Origin: Gammaproteobacteria bacterium
GTDB lineage: Bacteria > Pseudomonadota > Gammaproteobacteria > HK1
Direction of reading: 5' to 3'
Assembly: GCA_021773795.1 (NCBI GenBank)
Contig: JAJFJT010000004.1
Coordinates: forward strand, 81,204-145,203
Length of the DNA stretch: 64,000 bases
This document shows, in pieces, positions 10,264 to 20,676 of the stretch (within the stretch, counting starts at the first letter, position 1; each line of letters starts with the position of its first letter). Position numbers and translations under genes: made by a program. The notes under the pieces are model-generated. The model was not told the origin of the DNA, did no database searches, and saw only the letters and a program-made list of their open reading frames with translations.

Positions 10264-10480
10264 GCCAAAAACCTGCCGTTGAACCGCTTCCACCGGGGTC
10301 CAAGAGCAAATCTCCTTGAAAAACATGTGGATTCTCGGAGAAAGATAGTATAGGGTTCTTGACAGCAGAAATTTGTAGTCGTTTTGGGTAGTTCCTCAGC
10401 AGTGAATGCAGTAGACCGTCCCGTAATTTCCCCACAAATTTGTTTGCTAACACTTTTTTCATTGATATGAGGTAACTAGA
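10264..10480 (+). promoter_or_regulatory. Long leader of cold-shock gene
   Basis: 217 bp without a convincing gene lie between the ligase and the cold-shock protein. A leader of this length is characteristic of cspA-type mRNAs, whose 5' UTR acts as a thermosensor. The start codon follows GATATGAGGTAACTAGA, with a GAGGT-like ribosome site. I could not fold the leader by eye. Confidence 0.4.
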
Positions 10481-10684
10481 ATGGCTACAGGTACAGTCAA
10501 GTGGTTTAACGATTCCAAGGGCTTTGGGTTTATTGCCCCCTCCGACGGTAGCGATGACGTGTTTGTTCATCACAGTGCCATCCAGGCCAGCGGCTTCAAG
10601 TCCCTGGCCGAGGGACAGCAGGTGACTTTTGACACCGAGCGCGGTCCCAAAGGTTTGAGCGCCACTAACGTCGTCGCCGAATAA
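10481..10684 (+). CDS. Cold-shock protein, CspA family
   Basis: A 67-residue single cold-shock domain (OB fold) of standard length. RNP1 (KGFGFI, near 16) and RNP2 (VFVHHSAI, near 29) are intact. It binds single-stranded RNA/DNA and acts as an RNA chaperone in the cytoplasm. It is monocistronic, with its own long leader and a strong intrinsic terminator 33 bp after the stop. The exact paralogue (cspA, C, D or E type) cannot be told. Confidence 0.95.
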
Positions 10685-10716
10685 GCCCACAAGGCTTCGC
10701 TAACGTCGTACCTAAA

Positions 10717-10742
10717 AGCCCCGCTCCGGCGGGGCTTTTTTT
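10717..10742. terminator. Intrinsic terminator of the cold-shock gene
   Basis: AGCCCCGC-TCCG-GCGGGGCT hairpin (10717-10736), 8-bp perfect stem, followed by a run of T on the plus strand and preceded by AAAA. It ends the cold-shock transcript. It may work weakly on the minus strand for the hydrolase transcript. Confidence 0.9.
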
Positions 10743-13396: not shown

Positions 13397-14593
13397 TCAA
13401 AGGTTTGGAACAGCACCATAAGCACCTGCACGATACTTGGCGTACAGGTTGTCATCCCGCCGAATACCTTTCATATCACCCAGCCTCCATGCCTCGCTAT
13501 ATCCATTAGAATCCTTCTCGATGAGAAGCACCTGATCCTTCTGCAAATCATTCAACACCTCATGAGCATGGCAGGTAAAGATAATTTGCGCATTATGGGG
13601 ATTGCTTTCGCGATCAATGAACAGAGCAAGTATCGCGGTAATCATCTCTGGATGCAGGTCTGCCTCCATCTCATCAATGATGACAATACCACCATGCTCC
13701 AGGGCAGGCAGAATCTTCCCAAGCAACACAAATGCCGCCTGGGTACCACTGGACTCGTACCAGAACAGTAGTTTCTGCACTTTTTCACCCATCCGGTGAA
13801 CACCCGCGGGAATATTGGCATCTTTACTCTCGCCAGTTTCCTTTTCCACAAACTTACGGGATTCAATAACAACTTCCGAGAGACCCAGGTCCATTTGACT
13901 CAAGAACTCAGACATCTGTGCTCGCAGTGCCGGACGACCATGAAAAAAATCCGTGGCCTCAAAAACATCACTGCTCTCAAAGTGATCTCGACCGCTGTAA
14001 TACACATTGGTATAAAACCGGGCAAAATAACCGACCAGTGCACGCGCACAAGGCACGTTGTACTGAGCAGCCGTGGCAATCAAGGAGGCATTAGGCCGAA
14101 CCCTGGCGGCTTCCCTGGCGGAGAAACCAAACTTCTGCTGCCGGATTTCATAGGCTGAATCCAACTCAGACCAGTCACGGCGAAAAATAAAGCTGAAGAA
14201 CTTGCTGGTCTTGAGATGCAACGACTCATGCACCACCCGCTCCGGATTGATGATCAAAGAATAGCGATAGTGCTGCCCCTTGTTCTCGAACTCAATCTCG
14301 AACTCGCTGTCCTTCTCGTCCGAGAAAAAATGGGCCTGAATCAGGATCTCATCCTCAGGTTTGCTAGCGGCAAACGAATGCGCGATAAACCAGCTCAGAA
14401 AGGCCAGCGGCTTTAACACGTTGGTTTTGCCCGAGGCATTCGGACCGATTGCTGCAACCACCTTCGATAGGCGGGCACCGCCCGGACTCTCGAAGACCAG
14501 ATCCGTTACCGGTGCCTGGCGATTCAGCAAAAAGAAAACCTCCGTCTCGCCAGCAAACGAGAAAAAGTTCTTGAATCGGTATTTATGGAGCAT
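13397..14593 (-). CDS. AAA family ATPase, RloA/AbiLi-like (COG1106)
   Basis: A 398-residue ABC-type AAA ATPase. The Walker A IGPNASGKTNVLK is near residue 50, and a long insertion follows. The Walker B HGGIVIIDEMEADLHPE is near 310, and the sensor-like QIIFTCHAHEVL near 340. The order 'RFKNFFSF' then Walker A then IIDE..DLHP is that of the AAA_15/AAA_21 group used in several phage-defence systems. The ATG at 14593 is preferred over a GTG at 14605. The ribosome site is weak. It is followed by the RloB-like gene and the epimerase with almost no gaps, and preceded by a large palindrome that may be the operator. Confidence 0.8.
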   Translation of the reverse strand: MLHKYRFKNFFSFAGETEVFFLLNRQAPVTDLVFESPGGARLSKVVAAIGPNASGKTNVLKPLAFLSWFIAHSFAASKPEDEILIQAHFFSDEKDSEFEIEFENKGQHYRYSLIINPERVVHESLHLKTSKFFSFIFRRDWSELDSAYEIRQQKFGFSAREAARVRPNASLIATAAQYNVPCARALVGYFARFYTNVYYSGRDHFESSDVFEATDFFHGRPALRAQMSEFLSQMDLGLSEVVIESRKFVEKETGESKDANIPAGVHRMGEKVQKLLFWYESSGTQAAFVLLGKILPALEHGGIVIIDEMEADLHPEMITAILALFIDRESNPHNAQIIFTCHAHEVLNDLQKDQVLLIEKDSNGYSEAWRLGDMKGIRRDDNLYAKYRAGAYGAVPNL

Positions 14594-14615
14594 GGCGGCA
14601 CCCACATAATGCGTT

Positions 14616-14655
14616 ATAAGCTATAATTGACAATATATTGTTGATTATAGCTTAT
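14616..14655. promoter_or_regulatory. 40-bp palindrome/operator upstream of the ATPase operon
   Basis: The arms ATAAGCTATAAT (14616-14627) and ATTATAGCTTAT (14644-14655) are perfect inverted repeats. Between them is a second perfect 12-bp palindrome, ACAATATATTGT (14630-14641). On the minus strand it contains a TATAAT (-10, 14649-14644) with TTGAAA 15 bp upstream, so a repressor bound here could block the ATPase operon promoter. No regulator gene for it is evident next door, apart from the winged-helix antitoxin at 14765. Confidence 0.6.
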
Positions 14656-14764
14656 ATATGACTTTTTCAACCTGATAATTACAATTTTTTGTCAGTTGAT
14701 GTCTCAGAGACCCTTTAGGGATGCACCGTAGTCGCGTCGATCTGGAGGCGCTTATTGGAAATCA

Positions 14765-15160
14765 TTATGCAGCCGATTCATTAGGCACCGGGGCGCTATA
14801 ATGAATCCCAAATAAGACCCTGAAATCTGTCGCTTTGACCTTGGGAGCAATTTTCCCATCAACCTTTGGGAGTTCAACGATACCGTATCTCTCCAATGTC
14901 CTGAGAGTTCTGGATAAATTGGATTTTTTCCGATGACTGAGCTTTTCTAATTCAGCTAAAGAGTTCGGGTGGTGGCTTATAATTAACTTCAGTAGTTCTT
15001 GATTATCGCTACTTAGAACCTGAGACATTGACTTGACCGACTCAAACCAGACCTTTGGCTCATCCTTTCCGGGTTTATACTCCCCTTTAGCGATGGCAAT
15101 GGTTCTCTTTTTATAATCTTTTGCCGAGATGACACCGATATTTAGAACCCTGGTATCCAT
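14765..15160 (-). CDS. Winged-helix DNA-binding protein, putative TumA-type antitoxin
   Basis: A 131-residue protein. Residues 55-105 (LLKLIISHHPNSLAELEKLSHRKKSNLSRTLRTLERYGIVEL, given in parts) form a winged helix of the HVO_A0114 type: 'SLAELEKL', 'KKSNLSRTL' recognition helix, 'LERYGIVEL'. The N-terminal part KPKVWFESVKSMSQVLS is usual in this family. It starts 12 nt after the TumE-like toxin gene on the same strand, the order known for tumE-tumA toxin-antitoxin pairs. It probably neutralises the toxin and represses the pair through the palindrome at 15551-15569. Confidence 0.75.
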   Translation of the reverse strand: MDTRVLNIGVISAKDYKKRTIAIAKGEYKPGKDEPKVWFESVKSMSQVLSSDNQELLKLIISHHPNSLAELEKLSHRKKSNLSRTLRTLERYGIVELPKVDGKIAPKVKATDFRVLFGIHYSAPVPNESAA

Positions 15161-15172
15161 AACCCCATCCCT

Positions 15173-15519
15173 CTATTTTCCAATAATCAAATTTACATCT
15201 TTCCAAAAGTCTTCCATTAGCTGGCCTGGACCCTCAAATTCATAAACCTGAATTTTTTCTTTATTGTGTTTATGGTCCCACACAAGCCTCTTCCCACCAT
15301 ATTTCTTATTTCCCGGCTTAATCCCATGCGCATTGTCATACCCAAGCACTCTCTTGTTACTACAATCATGCAGTGTTAATGAATATTTAATTCCATGAGG
15401 AATATGCACATCTGGATCCACCCTTTTCACAGAGAATTTCCTCCAGTATCCATTGGAAACACTTCACCATCCATCTCAAGCAGGACGGATAACCCAACAT
15501 CATCAATGTATTTAGTCAC
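15173..15519 (-). CDS. TumE-family toxin (DUF6516-like), apparent one-base frameshift
   Basis: An open 85-residue frame from GTG 15430 (GGAGG 9 nt upstream) contains the TumE-like core HGIKYSLTLHD, RVLGYDNAHGIKP, and YEFEGPGQLMEDFW. Directly upstream, in another frame from GTG 15519, sequence such as DDVGLSVLLEMDGEVFPMDTGG looks like the missing N-terminal third. Adding one A at the AAA (15437-15439) joins the two into ...MDTGGKFSVKRVDPD. So the toxin gene either has a real inactivating frameshift or a base is missing from the assembly. If real, the GTG product may be a truncated toxin beside an intact antitoxin. Toxins of this family are thought to act as RNases. Confidence 0.7.
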
Positions 15520-15642: not shown

Positions 15643-16500
15643 CTACGGGGTCTTGTTCCGTGCCTTCTCTATCTGCCTGATAATCCTGCTGATTCTGGAA
15701 TAGTGAAGGTCAAACTGCTCGCCGATAGCACTCATACTGTAACCCCCACTTCGGTAAGCTTCGGAAATAGCACGATTCCGGTCGGTGTACCTGCCTATAT
15801 ACCACTCTAATGGCTTGGCGACCGGTCGCCGCTGGGTCCTGGGAATTTCACTCAAACGCGGGTTGCCAGCTATCTTTTTCTGCATCTTCTCGACAAATCT
15901 TTCTGAGCCTAGATAGATCTGGTTTTTGAGTTCCTCCCAGGGCGAGGGCTGGTTCTTGCCTTGGGCAACAAACTTCCGGTATTCGTTTTGAGCCTGCCGC
16001 TTACGCCTTGCAAAGGCGGCCAGTAGCCAGTCCGTTTCCAGCCATGGGAAGCCGGGGCTCATCCCCGCTGTCTCCCGGTAGCTGCTCCATCGCCACTCCC
16101 GGGCTGAGCGCACCATGCGGGCACGAACGGGGTTCAATACGATATAGCGGGATAGTTCCAACAAGTAGCTGTCTTTCTGAACCAGGATGGCCTTGTAACG
16201 CCCCTGAAAGACGTGGCCTGTCCGTTGGTGGGCGTGATTAAAGCGCTGGGTGTAGACACCATTGAGCTGACGCATACCCTGTGACAGGTTGCCGTCAGGA
16301 GTTTCGATAAGCAGGTGGTAGTGGTTGCTCATCTGGCACCAGGCATGGACTGTCCAGTTAAAACGCTCGCAGACTTGCCCAAGAACCTCAAGCCACCGCT
16401 CCCGGTCAGAATCCTGGAGATAGATATCATCCTGCCCATCTCCACGGGAAGTCACATGATAGAGGGCACCGGCAAACTCAATACGTAGCGGTCTCGACAT
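15643..16500 (-). CDS. REP-associated tyrosine transposase (RAYT, Y1/HUH type)
   Basis: A 285-residue single-strand transposase. It starts MSRPLRIEFAGALYHVTSRG (written in family style) and carries the HUH motif in MSNHYHLLIETPDGN. The downstream tyrosine region RYIVLNPVRARMV is also typical. The C-terminal 70 residues add an HTH-like tail (GGYSMSAIGEQFDLHYSRISRII). ATG 16500 is chosen by alignment with the family; an ATG at 16506 is also possible. These enzymes mobilise short REP-like sequences. It sits between the toxin pair and a truncated DUF927 gene. Confidence 0.88.
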   Translation of the reverse strand: MSRPLRIEFAGALYHVTSRGDGQDDIYLQDSDRERWLEVLGQVCERFNWTVHAWCQMSNHYHLLIETPDGNLSQGMRQLNGVYTQRFNHAHQRTGHVFQGRYKAILVQKDSYLLELSRYIVLNPVRARMVRSAREWRWSSYRETAGMSPGFPWLETDWLLAAFARRKRQAQNEYRKFVAQGKNQPSPWEELKNQIYLGSERFVEKMQKKIAGNPRLSEIPRTQRRPVAKPLEWYIGRYTDRNRAISEAYRSGGYSMSAIGEQFDLHYSRISRIIRQIEKARNKTP

Positions 16501-16548
16501 AAACATAGGCTACTTGACGGGAGAGCACGAGACAAGACCTGACCCCGT
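15645..16548. mobile_element. RAYT element with imperfect terminal inverted repeats
   Basis: The left end ACGGGGTCTTGTTCCGTGC (15645-15663, inside the transposase C-terminus) and the right end GCACGAGACAAGACCTGACCCCGT (16525-16548) are imperfect inverted copies of each other. The DUF927 reading frame starts immediately to the right (after a TGA at 16549-16551), so the element borders the truncation. Confidence 0.6.
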
Positions 16549-16551
16549 TGA

Positions 16552-17559
16552 CTCTTTGGAAATGCCTTGGAGGCGACAGCAGCAGCGCACAACGACAACC
16601 TTTTGTGCCTTGATGAAATCGGCACCTGTGATGTTCGGGATATCCGAAAGGTGATCTACGATCTATTCGGTGGCACTGGCAAGGCCCGCCTTAACAAAAA
16701 CAGTGAAGCCCAGCAAAAACGATCCTGGAGGATTGTTGGCCTCTCCACGGGAGAACTCTCTATTGCGGAGAAAATTTCAGAGGAGCCTCGCCACACTACG
16801 AAAGCAGGCCTAAAAGTCCGCCTGCTGGATATCGCTATTGATGACAACGTGATTATGGATAGTCACGGCGCGTCCCCTAGTTCATTTGTAAATAGCCTAA
16901 AAGAGCACTGTGGCCAATTCTATGGTAGCGCTGGGCCTATATTTATTGAGCAGTTGATAGCCTTAGAAACTACTCCAACGGAGCTATCAGCACGCGTTAA
17001 AAAGAGCGTAAATGAATGGGAAAACAATCTAAGCGAGAGCATAAATCTAGAAAGTTACCAGAAACGAGGAATACGGAGGCTTGCCCTCATTTTAGTTGCA
17101 GGTCTGCTAGCTCGTGATTTTGGCATCTTACCCTTCGAAAAAGCTGAGCTAGTTTTAGCCATCAAACACATACGGGATGCGTGGCTCAATGACGTGCTCA
17201 ACATACCCGAGGATATCAAAGGCCTCCTTGCCATACGGAACTTCATTATCCGCTATCGGGAGAGCCGATTCCTGAACATCCACTCCCACCATAAGGCGGG
17301 TACTGTCATTCGAGATCTGGCCGGCTATATCAAAATCCACAACAATCAGGACTTCTATCTATTTACGGATGCGGGATTTCTTGAAGCCTGCGGAGGATGC
17401 TCCTCAAAAATCGCTATCACCGCTCTGAAGAAACTTGGTTGCCTCCATACTGACGACCCGAATAGGGCGAAGAGCCGGCACATGATTTCAAGCCTTGATA
17501 AACGTCTACGCCTTTACGCCATCAAGGGAGAAATATTGGAATGGGACGGGAATGCGTAG
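16552..17559 (+). pseudogene. DUF927 phage-type helicase/primase gene, 5'-truncated
   Basis: The frame is open from a TGA at 16549 to the stop at 17559. It reads from the first codons as the middle of a DUF927 protein: GNALEATAAAHNDNLLCLDEIG (Walker B region), YDLFGGTGKARLNK, LSTGELSIAEK, VRLLDIAID. Everything upstream, including Walker A, is missing, and the only nearby initiator is a TTG at 16567. The first in-frame residues begin right at the RAYT end, so the transposase element and a linked deletion appear to have removed the 5' part. DUF927 proteins come from phages, satellites and integrative elements, so this marks an older mobile element here. Confidence 0.75.
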
Positions 17560-17822: not shown

Positions 17823-18794
17823 TTAATGAAGTTTCTGAGTTGATTTTTTTTCTATTATCCTAGCAACTCGGGTCTTTTCCTGAAGAAGAGACTTTATTCG
17901 CGTAACCAACTTAGGATCTGATTGGCTACCTGCCACCGCCCTTCCTATTACCACATTAAGGAGCCGAAGTTTTTCAGTGGAATCCTCCATTCTGAGGATG
18001 CTAGAAACCTCATGATGCATACCCATGTGTTTCTTGTTTGGCAGTCTAAGCCCATCATCTAGAACTATCGAACCCGTAACTTCTTTTGGATATCCTTTTT
18101 CATATACAAATTCCTTTTTAGCAGGTGATTGCAACCCACGTTGTTTCAAAATACCACGAATCCTATAGAGTGTAGACCTATTAGCCTTTTCGCCCGAGAT
18201 GGCAATATCATCTACGTAACACGTCATAGTTAACCCAAGAGATTGGGTTAACTCATAGATCGCCTCAAACATTTTGTAATGAGCATAAAAAGCGGTGACC
18301 TGACTTAAACAACTGCCAGTAGGAACATGCCCACGACAAACTGACAACAAAGTCAGAAGGCCTGCAACATCTCTACTGCAGTGCAATACATCAAAGTAAA
18401 ATTCAAATACATGCCACCCCAAGGTAGAAGGATAGAATTTTTGGATATCTAATTTTATAAGCCGACTATTCCCGACATGTGCAGCTGCATTTGTTATATA
18501 GGACCTTTTTTTAACGCCAGAGTGCAAGTAACTCGGGGGCATAATTCTTCTCAATAAATTAAATAACCTCCTATGAATCCTTTCAAGTTTAGGTTTTGGA
18601 ACTTCAACCTGACGGGATTTATCCCGTTCCTTGCCAAGAATGAAGTGCCGATAGTTATCAGGCCTTTTAGCTAATCGTTCCAAATCATTTAGTGATGTAT
18701 TGAATAGTGTCGCGAGTTTTTTACGACTTTTAAGCCTATATAACGGCGACTGGTCAAACGCATATAATTTATGCTGATTTTTCCTGCACTCCAT
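17823..18794 (-). CDS. Retron reverse transcriptase
   Basis: A 323-residue RT. The catalytic box is CYVDDIAIS (YVDD, 193-196), the first catalytic Asp is in LIKLDIQKFYPS (near 116), and VPTGSCLSQ is near 160. Two retron hallmarks are present: NAxxH (NAAAH, 102-106) and VTG (239-241). It synthesises msDNA from the non-coding RNA encoded just upstream at 19114-19387. Its ATG overlaps the 3' end of the HTH gene by 26 bp, so the two are translationally coupled. Base composition is more AT-rich than the housekeeping genes, which fits transfer. The layout ncRNA-HTH-RT resembles what I recall as the type VI retron class; this was not verified. Confidence 0.9.
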   Translation of the reverse strand: MECRKNQHKLYAFDQSPLYRLKSRKKLATLFNTSLNDLERLAKRPDNYRHFILGKERDKSRQVEVPKPKLERIHRRLFNLLRRIMPPSYLHSGVKKRSYITNAAAHVGNSRLIKLDIQKFYPSTLGWHVFEFYFDVLHCSRDVAGLLTLLSVCRGHVPTGSCLSQVTAFYAHYKMFEAIYELTQSLGLTMTCYVDDIAISGEKANRSTLYRIRGILKQRGLQSPAKKEFVYEKGYPKEVTGSIVLDDGLRLPNKKHMGMHHEVSSILRMEDSTEKLRLLNVVIGRAVAGSQSDPKLVTRIKSLLQEKTRVARIIEKKSTQKLH

Positions 18795-19089
18795 CCCTAA
18801 CGCTCTCTGTTTCTGATAGCCAATTCATAATCTTAACTATTTTTCCAGCAACTCTGACTCTGACCCTCTCCGAGAACATATTCTTCTCTAGGTTTTCAGA
18901 AAACAATAAGAGAGAAGATGCTGGAAGATCAAATATCGATGAATACTTTTCAAGCACTTCAAGGCTAGGAGATTTTTTTCCGGATTCTAGTTCTGATAAA
19001 TACGATCGTGAGATCCCAATTCTCTCTGCAAGCGTAGACTGATTAATATCATGAAAAACCCTGACTAATCTTAGCGCTTCATTTAGCAT
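18769..19089 (-). CDS. XRE-family HTH protein, retron accessory protein
   Basis: A 106-residue protein. An N-terminal HTH_3 domain (NQSTLAERIGISRSYLSELESGKKSPSLEVLEKYS in parts: 'STLAERIGIS', 'SYLSELESGKK', 'PSLEVLEKY') spans residues 15-60. A basic/hydrophobic tail of about 45 residues follows. ATG 19089 is used, with AGGTG 6 nt upstream. It lies between the retron RNA and the RT and overlaps the RT gene by 26 bp. It may be the effector/antitoxin partner of the retron, its repressor, or both. Confidence 0.8.
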   Translation of the reverse strand: MLNEALRLVRVFHDINQSTLAERIGISRSYLSELESGKKSPSLEVLEKYSSIFDLPASSLLLFSENLEKNMFSERVRVRVAGKIVKIMNWLSETESVRDGVQEKSA

Positions 19090-19113
19090 AATAATCACCT
19101 AATATTAGAAACA

Positions 19114-19387
19114 TTCAGGGGTCATTGCATGAGCTGTTGTAACACCCGAACAACGCACATAAAAATGCGGAATAAGTTTGTTACAAACACCCAGGTTTTC
19201 CGATGGACGAAAAGACTTTTTATCTTTCCAAGGCCATCTTTCCACCTAACATGCAATGCCCGCGATCGTGTAGTAAGTTGATCATTTTTCATAATCTTCA
19301 CCTTTAGGTTATCAGTACAGCAAAACTGCTATACCGTGTCGTCACAACCTAAAAGACGAGAGTACGAACGCGGGAGTTACCCCTGAA
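19114..19387 (-). ncRNA. Retron msr-msd RNA
   Basis: Read on the minus strand, the parts follow the retron order. a1 is TTCAGGGGT (19387-19379) and its exact complement a2 is ACCCCTGAA (19122-19114). An msr hairpin has the 8-bp stem TTTAGGTT/AACCTAAA (arms 19346-19353 and 19303-19310). The msd is closed by a perfect 9-bp stem CATTGCATG/CATGCAATG (19250-19258 with 19123-19131) directly abutting a2. Inner msd hairpins are GATGG/CCATC (19202-19206, 19234-19238) and TTGTAACA/TGTTACAA (19137-19144, 19179-19186). It ends 25 nt before the HTH start codon. The branching guanosine is not identified with certainty. Confidence 0.8.
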
Positions 19388-19555
19388 CACACTAACGGCT
19401 CACTTGTCGTGTGAGCCGGCTATACCTGCATCGTCATGGCATCCATCTCGGGTGCAGCATGAGGAGGGCGGGCATACAGTAGAGACCTAAGCCTCCGCGG
19501 GCCTAAAACTGCCCATAGATAGACGACATCTCTCGTATACTCAGCTACGGTTGAA

Positions 19556-19650: not shown

Positions 19651-20676
19651 TTATCCGGCGCTGGGATGCAGAGCCTTAATATGTCGCTCTGCCCATGTAT
19701 GGCCAGAATAGTAGTCACATATCCAGAGCAGTTCTTGCACTGCAGCTATTATCTCCACCACCTTTTCGTGAGTCGGGGGAGATGCTCCCTTGTGGAGCAT
19801 TTGATTTCTTATATAGACCGCATCTGTAATTACCTTGATTAAAGAATTTTCTTTTGTAGCTTCGTAGAAGCTCTTATCGACCGAGAACAAGACGGGGAAA
19901 TAATGCAAAAGAATGTTTACCACAGGAGGAGACTGCATCGAATCGACCAACCATGCAGCGTCTGGAACTTTATTTACAATCACCGTTTTTACTGCGACCT
20001 CTAGGGCAGATACGGCTATGAGGACGGAACTCCTCGGGCTACTATGTTGAAGCCCTTTTGCCTCCCTTAGTAACTCCTGGCTTACTGGCTCTTGCTGGTT
20101 TTCTTCCACAAGGTTACAAATTTCGCCAATATCTATTTTTTGATGAGCAAGAACGGAGTGTGGTGGCGTAATACTTACAATCGAATGTCGCGAAGGAGCT
20201 GGGTACCAGGAAACCCCGTTGTTGTTGGAGACAGACAGTCCCCTCGTACTAATTGGCGATGGACCACCCTCCTGCGCATATCTCCAGCGCAAGATGCTCA
20301 CCAGTGAGCATCCCACTGAACTCAATTTCCGTCCTACCATATCGATGAACGACCCAAACGGCTCTGGATAGCACTTCAAGCCATAGGAAGGGCCGTCATG
20401 ATGAATCATTTCCTCGGCGGAGCTCACTTTCACTCCCTCCGGAGGGCGCCGACCCTCAAACAATGCTGCAAATACAGGGATAGTCTTTTTTGTCGGTTCG
20501 ATCTCACCCAGAATATCTAGAAATGCATTGAAGCTCTGAAATCCCTTATCCCTCTCGTCATCGGAGGGAGCTCTAATAAAAGCACGAATTTCGTCAGGAC
20601 CCCCAAAATCAAATTGAATGGGTTCGCTAGAATGGATGTCCAGCCGACTCACAGTGTAGGAAAGCTTGAATAACAT
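19651..20676 (-). CDS. Unrecognised protein with C-terminal HEPN-type RxxxxH motif
   Basis: A 341-residue product I do not recognise as a whole. The C-terminal region is helical and contains AVYIRNQMLHKG, an R-N-x3-H motif (Arg290 to His295) of the kind that forms the RNase site of HEPN domains. It is preceded by a helix LEVAVKTVIVNKVPDAAWLV and followed by EIIAAVQELLWICDYY. The N-terminal 200 residues show no motif I can name. It lies upstream of the retron RNA on the same strand, 264 bp away, within the defence-like island. It may be an abortive-infection RNase, alone or with the retron; that is inference. Confidence 0.55.
   Translation of the reverse strand: MLFKLSYTVSRLDIHSSEPIQFDFGGPDEIRAFIRAPSDDERDKGFQSFNAFLDILGEIEPTKKTIPVFAALFEGRRPPEGVKVSSAEEMIHHDGPSYGLKCYPEPFGSFIDMVGRKLSSVGCSLVSILRWRYAQEGGPSPISTRGLSVSNNNGVSWYPAPSRHSIVSITPPHSVLAHQKIDIGEICNLVEENQQEPVSQELLREAKGLQHSSPRSSVLIAVSALEVAVKTVIVNKVPDAAWLVDSMQSPPVVNILLHYFPVLFSVDKSFYEATKENSLIKVITDAVYIRNQMLHKGASPPTHEKVVEIIAAVQELLWICDYYSGHTWAERHIKALHPSAG

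Follow-up and report, generated by a model that had tools for sequence, protein, structure and literature searches.

Organization of the retron locus

The stretch of DNA analyzed here (the window) comprises 64,000 nucleotides of a gammaproteobacterial assembly (GCA_021773795.1, contig JAJFJT010000004.1, positions 81,204 to 145,203) and contains on its minus strand a retron locus (17823-19388) composed of a reverse transcriptase (RT) gene, a helix-turn-helix (HTH) gene and an msr-msd RNA able to fold, within which a small, conserved open reading frame (ORF) is embedded. Read 5′ to 3′ on this strand, the elements follow one another in the order hairpin H1, the a1 arm, the 5′ arm of stem P1, hairpin H2, a Shine-Dalgarno (SD) sequence, the ATG of the small ORF at 19292, the 3′ arm of P1, the predicted msd, the a2 arm, the HTH gene and the RT gene (Table 1).

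The RT carries the NAAAH (residues 102-106), YVDD (193-196) and VTG (239-241) motifs that a preliminary description of this DNA had reported, and these key residues do not vary across 11 aligned RTs. Its top RT match in PADLOC is RT_VI (1.6e-84, 281 bits; runner-up RT_III-A, 128 bits), a search of the PDB detects a sequence resemblance to the Ec86 RT (1.1e-11), and Pfam RVT_1 is matched at sub-threshold level only. Retron hidden Markov models dominate, and the grouping with group II intron or diversity-generating retroelement enzymes that had been named as telling against a retron was not seen. The HTH gene most likely starts at the ATG at 19089, which is preceded by the SD sequence AGGTGA, and its 3′ end overlaps the start of the RT gene; the same gene order and overlap are found in the type VI retrons of P2-like phages and plasmids. 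Since RT_VI and HTH_VI are the best PADLOC matches for the two proteins, the retron is assigned by sequence to type VI, and this membership is firm. An Rfam scan of the locus found no retron family, at either the gathering or a relaxed threshold. The type VI class reportedly goes back to a classification by Mestre and colleagues in 2020. The passage of PMC8541194 that cites Mestre et al. describes it as an RT accompanied by a DNA-binding gene and by genes for small auxiliary proteins, and at this locus the ORF at 19292-19122 answers to the small auxiliary gene; going by that passage, the small protein of type VI is already known and is not new.

The a1 and a2 arms pair as a helix of nine base pairs, as had been claimed, extended by one G-U pair (19388-19379/19122-19113), and the perfect 9-bp stem closing the predicted msd (CATTGCATG/CATGCAATG, 19258-19250/19131-19123) abuts a2 and ends within the stop codon of the small ORF, of which it takes in the first two bases. 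The predicted fold has a minimum free energy of −111 kcal/mol, compared with −72 ± 5.2 kcal/mol in shuffled sequences (z = −7.5; 0 of 200 shuffles as good); the msr stem and the msd-closing stem next to a2 of the preliminary description are confirmed. That description omitted both the hairpin 5′ of a1 and the ORF within the RNA, which comprises 56 codons from the ATG at 19292 to a TGA at 19124-19122 and has its own SD sequence upstream.

Table 1. Features of the type VI retron locus, in 5′ to 3′ order on the minus strand (positions in the window).
Feature	Position	Strand	Basis or remark
H1 hairpin 5′ of a1, GGCTCACACGACAAGTGAGCC	19397..19417	(−)	loop motif ACGACA, repeated in H2
a1 arm, GTTCAGGGGT	19379..19388	(−)	RNA fold
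P1 stem 5′ arm (msr)	19365..19374	(−)	CCCGCG..UUCG, pairing with CGAUCGCGGG
H2 (SD hairpin) 5′ arm, CTTTTAGGTT	19346..19355	(−)	RNA fold
H2 (SD hairpin) 3′ arm, AACCTAAAGG	19301..19310	(−)	overlaps SD
Shine-Dalgarno AAGGTGA of small ORF	19298..19304	(−)	partly paired in msr hairpin H2
Small ORF in msr-msd RNA, 56 aa, MKNDQLTTRSRALHVRWKDGLGKIKSLFVHRKTWVFVTNLFRIFMCVVRVLQQLMQ, candidate effector	19122..19292	(−)	ORF conservation, selection, helix prediction
P1 stem 3′ arm	19259..19268	(−)	also coding, about codons 9-12 of small ORF
Predicted msd (template)	19123..19258	(−)	closed by perfect 9-bp stem; codons 12 to stop of small ORF
a2 arm, ACCCCTGAAT	19113..19122	(−)	first base is last base of small-ORF stop codon
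HTH protein of XRE type (HTH of type VI retrons)	18769..19098	(−)	PADLOC HTH_VI 6.2e-35; HTH_3 1.6e-13
RT of type VI retron, 323 aa	17823..18794	(−)	PADLOC RT_VI; NAxxH, YVDD, VTG; Ec86 RT homology

Conservation of the small ORF

Relatives were gathered from phages, plasmids, Escherichia coli genomes, GTDB genomes and viral contigs, the last of which gave no match to a single-protein query and were matched by an alignment query. The resulting sample comprises 142 loci with an RT, at 124 of which an HTH gene was detected by sequence. For the ORF count the RTs were collapsed at 80% identity, leaving 88 clusters represented by one locus each, and an ORF was called where an ATG-initiated frame of 42-95 codons, provided with an SD sequence, had its end adjoining the following gene. 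Such an ORF is present in 80 of the 88 non-redundant loci; in the controls the rate is 2% when the reverse strand is read, 7% for shuffled sequences and 11% when the position is shifted. The eight misses include six low-scoring loci that are probably not type VI (L004, L005, L006 and L162-L164), one with a longer version of the ORF (L044) and one in which the ORF lacks an SD sequence (L110). Three calls counted in the 80 (L143, L112 and L003) look unrelated and were excluded from later tests. At six more distant loci read by eye, from Staphylococcus, Enterococcus, Acinetobacter, Burkholderia, Rhizobium and Leisingera, the ORF was present in every case (6/6), the staphylococcal and enterococcal loci being plasmid-borne. 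In most clades its length is about 45-62 codons.

Within the three best-sampled clades the ratio of non-synonymous to synonymous change (pN/pS) in the frame of the ORF is 0.35 (enterobacterial), 0.37 (cyanobacterial) and 0.20 (betaproteobacterial), and about 0.9-7 in the other two frames; two alphaproteobacterial groups gave in-frame values of 0.57 and 0.70, which are more saturated and indecisive alone. By this evolutionary evidence of in-frame purifying selection the ORF is translated, and the proposition that the putative template RNA encodes a peptide is strongly supported.

The peptide of the window has a basic N-terminus and an amphipathic C-terminal helix, the latter predicted by AlphaFold with a per-residue confidence (pLDDT) of 81-95 over residues 31-56, the N-terminal half being uncertain. 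Searches with it of Pfam, NCBIfam, PADLOC and PHROGs gave no match; its close phage relatives match PHROGs 15287 and 5826, both listed as of unknown function. Across the clades the net charge of the first 25 residues is typically about +5, the N-terminal half is basic in nearly all relatives, and the C-terminal segment is amphipathic and hydrophobic, with a mean hydrophobic-moment z of +1.8.

Small ORFs orphaned from an RT were found neither among the close phage matches nor in plasmids, and in the phage collection close peptide homologues occur only beside an RT. In E. coli, where 99 of 5,426 genomes carry the one lineage searched, an RT is annotated beside the ORF at all places listed. No locus with the ORF and without an RT was encountered in this search, which reached close relatives only.

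Position of the ORF within the RNA fold

In pair-probability calculations on 73 loci, the a1/a2 helix around the ORF has more than five pairs in 86% of loci (24% of shuffles) and the P1 helix in 96% (22% of shuffles), and pairing of the SD sequence with upstream RNA averages 0.61 (0.22 in shuffles). These probabilities, together with covariation, were used because a best-helix test by itself is weakly significant per locus (15/96). Among the 64 loci that have both helices in the minimum-energy fold, a2 starts a median of 6 nt past the ORF stop (interquartile range 4-7), codon 11 is where the msd starts, and the msd contains 81% of the ORF.

The same topology was obtained with RNAalifold separately in the enterobacterial and alphaproteobacterial alignments, the cyanobacterial form being less resolved, and in both tested alignments compensatory changes exceed those of all 500 shuffles (0/500) and of all slid controls. 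Related sequences may beat such shuffles without any structure, a caveat of the covariation tool, and because kinship alone could have this effect the weight rests on the slid controls and on the agreement of separate clades. The preliminary description had proposed a complete retron with a foldable msr-msd RNA and had named absence of the stems from homologous loci as the contrary outcome; the stems recur there with compensatory changes, and its proposal stands. Comparative sequence analysis further demonstrates that coding and predicted template functions share a single RNA, whose presumed priming end holds the stop codon.

HTH-less loci and the twin loop motif

An HTH gene is not detectable at six type VI-like loci (L046-L049, L063 and L091), which belong to Pseudoalteromonas, Catenovulum, a gammaproteobacterium and Pelomonas; here the ORF stays within a1/a2 and runs straight into the RT gene. 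Judged from these sequences, the HTH protein is dispensable on an evolutionary scale and the ORF is not. The HTH partner that had been postulated for the window retron is thus present, and its family defines type VI, but since relatives without it exist its role is probably that of a regulator rather than of the effector.

To our knowledge the textbook retron layout has no hairpin 5′ of a1. In the type VI loci H1 and H2, which flank a1, share within each locus a clade-specific loop motif of 6-8 nt, ACGACA in the window and GGGCGA, CGATGGC, GGACGAC, CGAGAG or GTGAGA elsewhere. The shared run is 6.2 nt within a locus against 4.2 nt between loci, a value matched in none of 20,000 permutations of the loops (0/20,000); this loop-based test was adopted because a common-substring test over the whole region is weak (16% of loci at p ≤ 0.05). 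A role as HTH operator is unlikely, the HTH-less loci L049 and L063 having retained the motif, and for the same reason an RNA element bound by the RT appears the likelier function.

Proposed mechanism and alternative explanations

The interpretation favored here, at a probability of roughly 0.45, is that the peptide is the effector and that the antitoxin consists in the reverse transcription of the peptide's message. One transcript would serve both as msr-msd template and as mRNA for a basic amphipathic peptide of ~50 residues, which would be toxic and probably membrane-active. The RT, as antitoxin, would bind the msr hairpins, hold the ribosome binding site shut and reverse-transcribe the ORF starting from its stop codon, with host RNase H stripping away the coding RNA so that multicopy single-stranded DNA (msDNA) remains; the HTH protein would probably act as repressor of the operon. 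A phage that disturbs the RT, RNase H, the msDNA or the repression of the operon would cause intact message to build up, the peptide would be made, and the infected cell would stop. In other retrons, RT-DNA synthesis begins next to a2. Retron RTs rely on host RNase H1 for removal of the template (PMC8989520), and with synthesis starting by a2 the production of msDNA would therefore be expected to remove about 80% of the message. For type VI retrons in general it is proposed, tentatively, that the template RNA may be a toxin mRNA, the RT an antitoxin that acts by binding and copying, msDNA a by-product of silencing, and blocked copying the event that arms the toxin.

Several observations weigh against this model. 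Pairing of the SD sequence is partial in many loci (0.00-0.10 in L033, L058, L074, L152 and L093, for example). The a1-P1 junction, where the conserved priming guanosine of a retron would be expected directly after a1, has no invariant G, reading AACT, CTAG, TTAA, TCA, AAA and others, and the nearest conserved Gs are those at the 3′ end of a1. The hydrophobicity of the peptide is only moderate, so that membrane activity is a guess. Finally, by analogy, other characterized retrons neutralize their toxin as protein and not as mRNA. The last point leads to the main rival, itself rather unlikely, in which the peptide is an effector kept inactive as protein by RT and msDNA (and perhaps the HTH protein), and the overlap of gene and msd reflects compactness or co-regulation. 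It has precedent in known retrons, where the toxin is sequestered by RT-msDNA (reviewed in PMC12409349), and the cationic N-terminus, with its net charge of about +5, might attach to msDNA or RNA, but this rival offers no reason why in every clade the stop codon is tied to a2 and ~81% of the coding sequence serves as template, or why the SD sequence is located in an msr stem.

It is improbable that the peptide is non-toxic and, as a basic accessory protein, serves to bind or protect msDNA or to aid the RT; its basic N-terminal half and the constant position of its gene beside the RT would fit such a role, but in its amphipathic, hydrophobic C-terminal helix it is similar to small membrane toxins, and these loci contain no other conserved effector enzyme. 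Still less probable is a scheme with the HTH protein as partner or effector and the small ORF as a leader peptide whose translation only controls folding of the RNA, for although the HTH protein defines type VI in PADLOC and is found at most loci, purifying selection acts on the ORF at the amino-acid level and HTH-less loci retain it. That the ORF is a chance open frame, such as highly structured RNAs can hold, is hardly credible for all its lack of a named family, given its frequency (80/88 vs. 2-11% in controls), its frame-specific selection and the conserved positions of its start, SD and stop.

Variant loci and neighboring genes

At L143 (1750-2500) an apparent insertion has replaced the msr-msd RNA, the small ORF and the 5′ part of the HTH gene, the RT frame remaining open. 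On plasmids of Aeromonas and Staphylococcus, genes for known type I toxins adjoin type VI retrons (Hok/Gef at L033:3865-4017 and Fst at L165:2539-2634, respectively), and a gene for a TIR-domain protein lies directly downstream of the RT gene of a Microvirga type VI retron (L038:3489-4448).

In the window, the retron is preceded by a gene for a 341-aa protein (19651-20676, minus strand) to which Pfam, NCBIfam and PADLOC assign no family. On its other side lie a C-terminal fragment related to DUF927 and cassette-chromosome replicative helicases (16567-17559, plus strand), probably a mobile-element remnant, and, adjoining this fragment, a gene for a REP-associated tyrosine transposase (15643-16506, minus strand; NCBIfam 3.5e-22, just below the cut-off). 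An AAA ATPase gene at 13397-15430 (minus strand), for which AbiLi is the best PADLOC match (2e-76), represents a probable second defense module near the retron; two small ORFs (131 aa, HTH-like, and 85 aa) are located upstream of it. A cspA thermoregulator RNA (Rfam RF01766, 95.5 bits) is found at 10353-10742 (plus strand). A tRNA-Thr attachment site was considered and rejected, the 3′ end of the tRNA not being duplicated in the window.

Comparison with known systems

Type VI retrons, which are probably an anti-virus system, occur in proteobacteria, cyanobacteria, Firmicutes plasmids and the P2-like prophages of E. coli. No effector is obvious in them; if the msd is coding, it would provide one and would explain the shape of the RNA. 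No description of an ORF within msr-msd, of a coding msd or of the twin motif was found in the literature searched, although this search covered neither Mestre et al. nor the experimental retron census and an earlier description is possible. The findings also caution that not every retron template is replaceable, non-coding cargo.

With Ec86 (type II-A) and the characterized tripartite retrons, the window retron shares a homologous RT and the a1/msr/msd/a2 order of the RNA, and msDNA would be expected here too. In those systems, however, an enzyme whose gene lies outside the RNA acts as effector, whereas the window retron has no enzyme effector, a coding template RNA and the additional hairpin H1 5′ of a1.

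If the favored model is correct, type VI retrons would represent a kind of toxin-antitoxin system in which the message for the toxin is silenced by being reverse-transcribed. Type I toxin-antitoxin systems such as Hok/Sok and TisB offer an analogy, with a short amphipathic or hydrophobic peptide, a message locked by RNA structure and an antitoxin at the RNA level, and no sequence homology between them and the retron peptide was found. The antitoxin of those systems is an antisense RNA, whereas that proposed here is an RT that converts the message to DNA; the retron cDNA would itself be antisense to the message. In DRT2 (Neo), too, the template RNA of a defense RT is connected with a small toxic ORF (PMC12039810), but reverse transcription there creates the gene, whereas in the window retron it would be expected to remove the message.
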